This document shows, in pieces, positions 27,683-29,261 of a DNA stretch of 64,000 nucleotides (position 1 is the first letter of the stretch; every line of letters starts with the position of its first letter). Position numbers and translations under genes: made by a program. A model generated the notes under the pieces. It ran no database searches and was not told the origin of the DNA. It saw only the letters and a program-made list of their open reading frames with translations. Location of the stretch: positions 1-64,000 of the forward strand of contig JACQDN010000049.1 of NCBI GenBank assembly GCA_016201105.1, in the 5' to 3' direction. This DNA comes from Pseudomonadota bacterium. GTDB lineage: Bacteria > Pseudomonadota > Alphaproteobacteria > Micropepsales > Micropepsaceae.

Positions 27683-27871
27683 AGGTTCACCTTCTGAGAT
27701 CAGGTGCTTCCGAGATTGAGGGAGGACTGAAGCGCGCCGTCCCCGGATTCCAACGCGCTGTCGAATTCGCGCCGTAAAATAGAGAGTCGATTTTGGAGGG
27801 TCTTGCGGCACGATGACGCAGAAAATCCTAGATTCTCCCGGGCCTTGCGCGCCTGAGTGTCTAGCGTTCGG

Positions 27872-28288
27872 TCAGCATTCAAGTGCGCTCAAATGCCCTT
27901 CTTTCGCATAGTCCAGAAGCGCACGATCGCGCGTCATCACCGTGAGTCCGTACTCGCGCGCTGTGGCCGCGATGATGCGGTCAACTGGATCGCGATTGAG
28001 CCTCCCCGGCAAAAAACAAGATGCGATCAGCACTTGTGGCGGAAGCTCCGTCAATTGGATGCCATGAGTCTCGGTCAACTTGTGAAACCAGCGATCGGGG
28101 GACAGAGTGGACCTGAAGCTTTTACGCGTGGCCAGCGATCCAATTTCCCAAGCCGATATCGGCGAAATGAAAGTCGGAATCTGCAAGTCGGAGGCGCGAT
28201 CCATCGCTTCGACCGCCTCCCTCGACATTCGCGCGTTGTCGAAAATCCAAATCGCGGCGCATGTATCAAGCAACAAAGGCGCGTTCAT
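27872..28288 (-). CDS. PIN-domain toxin (VapC-like ribonuclease)
   Basis: 138-residue PIN protein. The acidic metal-binding residues are all present: D8 in LLLDTCAA, E48 in ISAWEIGSL, D100/D103 in NRDPVDRIIAATA and D121 in TRDRALL. VapC toxins cleave tRNA or rRNA when freed from the antitoxin. Its start overlaps the stop of the upstream antitoxin-like gene by four bases, the usual toxin-antitoxin order. Confidence 0.85.
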   Translation of the reverse strand: MNAPLLLDTCAAIWIFDNARMSREAVEAMDRASDLQIPTFISPISAWEIGSLATRKSFRSTLSPDRWFHKLTETHGIQLTELPPQVLIASCFLPGRLNRDPVDRIIAATAREYGLTVMTRDRALLDYAKEGHLSALEC

Positions 28289-28743
28289 TTGCCCAGCAGA
28301 CGGTCGAATTTAGCAACCATCTCTTGCTCAATTTCCGCCCACTCTTCCGCCGGCATCGCTGGTTGAGTCAGATCGTATCCTGGCTCTATAGTGAATGTGC
28401 CTTTCATTGCTCCAAACGCGGGATGGCGGCGGGATTCTTTGGCTTGGTCAGGTGGCTGATATCTGCGCTCCACTTCGGACATACCACTCACCTTTTTTTT
28501 CCTGCGCTGGAATACGAGCTTCTTTGCTTTCGGATTGACTTGCTCTGTCTCGAATCCCGATGAGAGCCATGCTTGCGCCTGGACATGGCTCTTGCCTTCA
28601 TCATTCGCCCACCATGCGGGATGCTTATAAGCGGAAGCCGGCAGTTTGCTTCCAAGCACCCTTTCAATTTCCGCGAAAGTCATCGGCACCTGAACGGTGG
28701 TCTGAGTTTTCAAGAATTCTGACAACGGGTCGTATTTTGACAT
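28285..28743 (-). CDS. DUF7662-containing antitoxin-like protein
   Basis: 152 residues. The N-terminal half (YDPLSEFLKTQ, VPMTFAEIERVLGSKLPASA, HPAWWAN) matches the small DUF7662 domain as I recall it, found alone or fused to restriction- and toxin-associated proteins. The C-terminal half is charged and ends with AEEWAEIEQEMVAKFDRLL, a helix that could occupy the toxin. It is not a normal AbrB, RHH or Phd antitoxin, so its role is inferred from position: it precedes and overlaps the PIN gene and has a promoter with an embedded palindrome. Confidence 0.65.
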   Translation of the reverse strand: MSKYDPLSEFLKTQTTVQVPMTFAEIERVLGSKLPASAYKHPAWWANDEGKSHVQAQAWLSSGFETEQVNPKAKKLVFQRRKKKVSGMSEVERRYQPPDQAKESRRHPAFGAMKGTFTIEPGYDLTQPAMPAEEWAEIEQEMVAKFDRLLGK

Positions 28744-28772
28744 CGTATGCAGTCCAAGTTACTGTGGAAAAG

Positions 28773-28801
28773 TATATACTATCCTATGAATAGTAAGTCA
28801 A
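28773..28801 (-). promoter_or_regulatory. Sigma-70-type promoter with operator palindrome for the antitoxin-toxin pair
   Basis: On the minus strand TTGACT (28796-28801) and TATATA (28773-28778) are exactly 17 bases apart, close to the sigma-70 consensus. Between and overlapping them TACTAT and ATAGTA form a perfect 6-base inverted repeat with a 7-base spacer (28777-28795). A repressor bound there would block the promoter, as expected for an autoregulated toxin-antitoxin operon. The site ends two bases from the trmL start codon. Confidence 0.7.
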
Positions 28802-28802
28802 G

Positions 28803-29261
28803 ATGCGCCTCGCCCTCTTCGAGCCTGACATTCCCCAGAACGCCGGCGCGCTGATCCGGCTCTGCGCCTGCTTGAATGTGACGCTCGACATCGTCGAGCC
28901 CTGCGGCTTTCTCTTCACCGACAGGCACCTGAAGCGCGCCGGCATGGATTATCTGGAGCAGGCGGAGATCGTGCGGTATGCCACGTGGAATGCCTTTCAG
29001 GACGCCTGCAAAAAGCTGGAGAGACGGCTCGTTCTCTTGACGTCGAAAGCCAGCCTTCCCTACACCGATTTCGCGTTCGCGCAGGGGGACACCATCCTAC
29101 TCGGCCGCGAAAGCGCCGGCGTTCCGGATTTCGTCCATGAGGCGGCCAATGCCCGTTTGCGGATTCCTTTGAGAAAGGGATTGCGTTCGATCAATGTGGC
29201 GCAGGCCGGTGCCATGGCCTTGGGGGAAGCCTTGCGACAGACAGACGGATTTCCCGCGTGA
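28803..29261 (+). CDS. trmL: tRNA (cytidine(34)-2'-O)-methyltransferase
   Basis: SPOUT-class methyltransferase of 152 residues that modifies the wobble base of some leucine tRNAs. Motifs: [19 protein letters not shown] at the start, [11 protein letters not shown] in the middle and the knot region [20 protein letters not shown]. It overlaps hemF by four bases (GTGA). The toxin-antitoxin promoter on the other strand abuts its start codon. Confidence 0.94.

Follow-up and report, generated by a model that had tools for sequence, protein, structure and literature searches.

In the 64,000-nucleotide stretch of DNA analyzed here (the window), two overlapping minus-strand genes are likely to form a type II toxin-antitoxin operon, in which a VapC-like PIN toxin would be neutralized by the Phd-type tail of its antitoxin, and DUF7662, a domain standing in for the Phd DNA-binding half, would bind the operon's own promoter. 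Because the modularity of antitoxins is well known (PMC10440598 and PMC1626090, as far as their accessible text goes), we read the DUF7662-PIN combination as a variant of type II systems rather than as a new kind. The Phd-type tail, the domain swap and the association of DUF7662 with other PIN toxins all go beyond the original prediction, which had proposed a toxin-antitoxin locus with DUF7662 as its operator-binding domain.

The DUF7662-PIN gene pair and its genomic site

The toxin gene (27872..28288, minus strand) encodes a protein of 138 residues that matches the PIN family PF01850 with 54.8 bits, against a Pfam cut-off of 23.6. Its acidic residues D8, E48, D103 and D121 are unchanged in all 34 distinct aligned loci (35 rows, with the window present twice), which bears out the original claim of a full acidic active site. 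The protein scores below the cut-off of the NCBIfam VapC equivalog NF047959 (14.3 bits versus 80). We infer that it would act as a VapC-like ribonuclease toxin.

The upstream antitoxin gene (28285..28743, minus strand) encodes 152 residues, and its reading frame overlaps that of the toxin, on the same strand, by the 4 bp ATGA. Its product passes the gathering cut-off of PF24698, DUF7662, with 63.7 bits versus 26. This is its sole Pfam domain, so the description of an overlapping upstream gene with DUF7662 and no known antitoxin DNA-binding fold was accurate. By this match, tail homology and a structure model, the protein comprises DUF7662 at residues 4-80 (28504..28734, minus strand; 64.5 bits in a genome search), which is the proposed operator-binding, winged-helix-like domain; a linker at about 81-104; a putative Phd-type toxin-binding tail at about 105-140; and then a C-terminal helix. 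No usable name came from NCBIfam, PADLOC or PHROGs, sequence searches against solved structures returned nothing relevant for either protein, and no antitoxin relative turned up when viral contigs were scanned.

DUF7662 occurs in 30 of 96 genomes of the window's taxonomic family, with 33 matches. The original prediction had asked for a search for other DUF7662-PIN pairs, and this found a PIN gene after the DUF7662 gene in 32 of the 33 cases (26 pairs, three more by a looser reading, L031, L047 and L053, and three at loci fetched later). Thirty-one of these 32 PIN proteins are of the window's type, the remaining one (L147) being of another; the one exception to the pairing, L052, has after DUF7662 a small gene that reads by eye as HNH-like. 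Beyond the family the domain is rare (15 of 385 class genomes and 17 of 349 genomes in a phylum sample). The 34 out-of-family loci, made up of 15 from the class sample, 15 new ones from the phylum sample and 4 from a contig search, include 11 with the window's PIN type, 5 with other PIN types and 18 with no PIN neighbor seen, one of the last (L024) falling under the Pfam cut-off. The two genes are a real, conserved pair, and the prediction of a toxin-antitoxin locus is well supported at the level of sequence: the genes stay together and overlap, the active site of the toxin is intact, and the antitoxin has the Phd-type tail described below.

By their coordinates, 22 of the 33 family matches have a divergent trmL-like gene no more than about 140 bp away. 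In the window this gene occupies 28803-29261 on the plus strand, with its start codon 2 nt from the start of the promoter's TTGACT box, and a bound operator might also affect it. In 4 of 13 DUF7662-free genomes checked, a gap of 212-401 bp without the pair separates the trmL-like gene from a petA-like motif; in the other nine, the patterns used missed the gene start or the petA-like motif. A stretch at 27774-27820 (TGCGTCATCGTGCCGCAAGACCCTCC...), between the toxin gene and the petA-like gene, recurs in pair-free trmL-petA gaps (L123, L126, L130 and, in part, L137) and could be a regulatory element for the petA operon.

The antitoxin tail and its relation to Phd/YefM

A search of 372 class genomes with the PIN toxin found 27 places in 25 genomes, six of them with a DUF7662 partner. 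Upstream of 18 of the 21 DUF7662-free relatives is a gene that, on reading the sequence by eye, is Phd/YefM-like; of the other three, two had no PIN by the pattern used and one had no upstream gene. For two relatives on plasmids, the annotation names Phd/YefM or prevent-host-death antitoxins.

The tails themselves are similar. A profile of 34 DUF7662 antitoxin tails compared with one of 10 Phd tails (10 of 20 Phd antitoxins, the other ten having been missed by the regular expression) gave a probability of 95.4% and a score of 39.3, whereas column-shuffled controls reached a maximum of 13.5, with none of 100 as high as 39.3. The Phd tail profile was weaker against single sequences: 19 of 34 antitoxins beat the best of 3400 shuffles, and the window antitoxin alone scored 12.9 bits against 7.1 for the best shuffle. 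A profile of the Phd N-terminal half recovered 4 of 4 held-out Phd proteins (E 3.6e-9 to 7.6e-23). By this profile that half is absent from the DUF7662 antitoxins, with a best E of 0.49, an E of 3.9 for the window antitoxin and no Pfam match. By inference from Phd-type antitoxins, the tail would wrap the PIN toxin and so neutralize it.

A tree of 62 PIN proteins places all 42 DUF7662-partnered toxins on one side of a single branch (SH-aLRT 93), and three Phd-partnered PINs (L061, L062 and L082) adjoin this group; the tree comes from a quick search with a small Phd sample and leaves 26 of 59 inner branches open. The position of all 42 toxins on one side suggests that the DNA-binding half of a Phd/YefM antitoxin was probably replaced by DUF7662 once, with the tail retained. 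This would be an exchange of antitoxin domains caught with its source (Phd-VapC) visible and with an approximate breakpoint, at about residue 90.

The operon thus resembles Phd/YefM-VapC (PHD-PIN) systems in its PIN lineage, its tail, the position of the antitoxin gene first and the short overlap or gap, but differs from them in having DUF7662 in place of the Phd DNA-binding half. With VapBC systems that have RHH or AbrB antitoxins it shares a PIN toxin beside a small upstream gene, whereas the window antitoxin has only DUF7662 by Pfam. Makarova et al. 2009 (PMC2701414) predicted PIN-COG2442 and PIN-MerR pairs, which likewise have a predicted DNA-binding antitoxin family adjoining a PIN gene; according to the descriptions in the accessible text of that paper, COG2442 is a 3-helical bundle and the MerR type a truncated MerR, both unlike the window antitoxin. 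The literature searched, with subscription papers and preprints outside its scope, yielded no mention of DUF7662 or PF24698, and among work on hybrid or winged-helix VapC antitoxins no title or abstract was recognized as describing a DUF7662-PIN pair.

The promoter and its covariation with DUF7662

A putative promoter, TTGACT-17-TATATA, lies at 28773..28801 on the minus strand (TTGACT, 28801-28796; 17 nt; TATATA, 28778-28773). The boxes and their spacing are as originally claimed; the term near-consensus was generous, as TATATA agrees with TATAAT at 4 of 6 positions, and it was missed by a promoter scan in which position 6 must be T. The putative operator, TACTAT-N7-ATAGTA (28777..28795, minus strand), has perfect arms (TACTAT, 28795-28790; ATAGTA, 28782-28777) around a 7-nt spacer, also as claimed, but instead of lying strictly between the boxes it reaches 2 nt into the -10 box. 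The exact 20-base site is found at a single place in the 3.85-Mb genome. The window palindrome alone was rejected as evidence, since 9.2% of 500 promoter shuffles equal it (P 0.09).

Across 29 same-family promoters, the best inverted-repeat arm averages 5.9 bp, versus 2.7 (sd 0.5) in shuffles, and none of 40 shuffle rounds reached that mean. Three of the 29 have no arm of at least 5, and a few best arms fall outside the promoter boxes (for example, in L008 and L032). The promoters also fall into motif classes that match classes of DUF7662 sequence. TTACTAT is present in 6 of 7 WWA-class loci (the window and five relatives, L032 being the one without it) and in none of the 22 WWS-class loci; TTTCCTTTA is present in 7 of 7 YDRLG-class loci and in 0 of 22 others. 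These classes were picked after inspection; the Mantel tests below are independent of the motifs.

In 27 family loci (L032 and L046 lying outside this set), promoter distance tracks DUF7662 distance, given tail and PIN, with r 0.16, 0.22 and 0.25 at k 5, 6 and 7 (P 0.011, also 0.012; 0.0015; 0.001). Given DUF7662, it tracks neither tail nor PIN (P 0.10 to 0.28), although the unconditioned comparison with PIN reaches P 0.046 at k 5. The tail, in turn, tracks PIN (r 0.40, P 0.001), and DUF7662 does not track PIN given the tail (P 0.12). With all 29 family loci the promoter-DUF7662 correlation is r 0.19-0.20 (P 0.002-0.007). When five out-of-family loci are added, DUF7662 still tracks the promoter (P 0.011-0.023) and so now do tail and PIN (P 0.001-0.003), which we take as deep ancestry. 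In sliding windows along the antitoxin, the promoter is tracked at residues 1-70 and 71-100, weakly at 61-80 (P 0.10) and not from 91-110 on; PIN is tracked from 91 on, and additionally in the windows 1-20 (P 0.04) and 61-80 (P 0.002).

The predicted structure was compared with known folds. The model of residues 1-84 has a mean pLDDT of 88.8 and the order H-E-H-H-H-H-E-E. Its best match, a weak one, is residues 158-246 of the RepE chain 1rep_C (Z 5.1, rmsd 3.2, 74 aligned), and the next, also weak, is CtsR 3h0d_B (Z 4.7, rmsd 2.8, 64 aligned). Further matches include RbkR, CooA, SarA and CAP, as well as a methyltransferase (Z 4.5), MAGE and Stn1, the unrelated ones being at Z 4.5 and below. 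RepE, CtsR and similar proteins bind DNA through winged helices. Foldseek gave a best E of 0.3, and nothing below E 0.001 against a viral library. The model's weak resemblance to a winged helix is suggestive only.

Three indirect lines agree with the original proposal that DUF7662 is an operator-binding domain: its place where Phd has a DNA-binding half, the weak winged-helix likeness and the promoter covariation within the family. From these sequence and model data, DUF7662 is probably the reader of its own promoter. It would bind the promoter repeats, which overlap the polymerase site, so that the antitoxin or the complex would repress transcription; loss of the antitoxin would then free both the toxin and the promoter.

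The main rival to this operator claim accepts a true toxin-antitoxin pair and makes DUF7662 a dimerization, sensor or toxin-contact domain, with the promoter simply co-inherited with the 5' end of the gene. Such linkage could cause part of the covariation, and it would predict what we see within the domain, whose first half tracks the promoter better (P 0.004 given the second half; 0.25 for the second given the first, at k 6). A sensor role has a precedent in Panacea domains, which the accessible text of PMC10440598 describes as proposed sensors, not neutralizers, in multidomain antitoxins. Against this rival, the tracking does not fade smoothly: residues 71-100 still show it, and from 91-110 on there is none. 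Moreover, the divergent trmL-like gene, just across the promoter, does not track it (r 0.03, P 0.35-0.39, 16 loci, a subset in which the promoter-DUF7662 test gives P 0.09 at k 6 and 0.03 at k 7). Against any role other than DNA reading stand also the position of DUF7662 in place of a DNA-binding half and its weak winged-helix resemblance, and we regard this explanation as unlikely.

We give far less credence still to a chromosomal operon unrelated to toxin-antitoxin systems, in which the PIN protein would serve as a housekeeping nuclease and its DUF7662 partner as a simple regulator or chaperone. The location of the genes at one chromosomal site beside trmL in 22 of 33 cases would suit it, but the pair is patchy (30 of 96 genomes), the same site is a short pair-free gap in four genomes, the tail covaries with the toxin, and relatives with Phd-type antitoxins are annotated as toxin-antitoxin systems.

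DUF7662 in other contexts

Four PIN types partner DUF7662. Besides the window's type, one locus (L089) combines a VapB-like C terminus with a VapC-like PIN; its tail is similar to annotated VapB genes, with E 4e-6 at best, and one of those genes has a PIN gene after it. A third type, shared by L087 and L147 on reading by eye, goes with antitoxins whose sequences we read as RHH-like; neither Pfam nor NCBIfam assigned the L147 antitoxin or the L089 tail to any known antitoxin domain. The fourth is found at L022, L023 and L026. A plasmid search found no match for the SREQIYD tail of L026 or for the L087 tail, and ten plasmid records contain relatives of the L026 toxin. A search for that toxin hit 3 of 289 class genomes: DUF7662 accompanied it in two, and the third hit was a fragment. 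With no plasmid match for the tails, and with the L026 toxin finding only DUF7662 or a fragment, a domain swap is not supported for the L026 and L087 types.

Combination with several toxin types recalls the Panacea antitoxins, where one domain occurs with several toxins and with exchangeable neutralizing elements, including a Phd-C tail, according to the accessible text of PMC10440598. The two domains are unrelated and, by the same account, standalone Panacea itself neutralizes; the window antitoxin instead has a tail, with DUF7662 as the proposed DNA binder. Since all partners in our promiscuity test are PIN proteins, the range of DUF7662 is also narrower than that of Panacea.

Outside PIN pairs, DUF7662 is fused to a Swt1-type HEPN domain in L025 and appears under records annotated as HNH endonuclease, DUF4268 protein and RloF, contexts that would fit a nucleic-acid-recognition module. 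Tentatively, and as slightly less likely than not, we suggest that DUF7662 is a general, exchangeable operator reader of prokaryotic conflict systems, recruited separately into four PIN-type antitoxins and into Swt1-type HEPN and HNH proteins, and that the promoter classes (TTACTAT, TTTCCTTTA and others) together with the domain sequences form a readable DNA-recognition code. The main reading, with DUF7662 as the operator binder of the window's pair, offers a function open to testing for a domain that had none assigned and that turned up in bacteria, in phage records and on an archaeal plasmid. The pairs of promoter and domain that occur in nature would allow direct tests of DNA specificity.

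Several single loci add to this variety. In genome G279 (contig C54), a HEPN-type DUF7662 protein with the L025 architecture (L017) lies about 1.2 kb from the DUF7662-PIN pair L026. Two DUF7662 proteins with no PIN neighbor, L016 and L018, share the tail LTIAEAKAGLAxxFGVxxxxIEITI. Finally, one genus-level group of genomes repeatedly carries a divergent short form of DUF7662 (LPRAAxRASWW; L027 and L095-L100) as a gene on its own.
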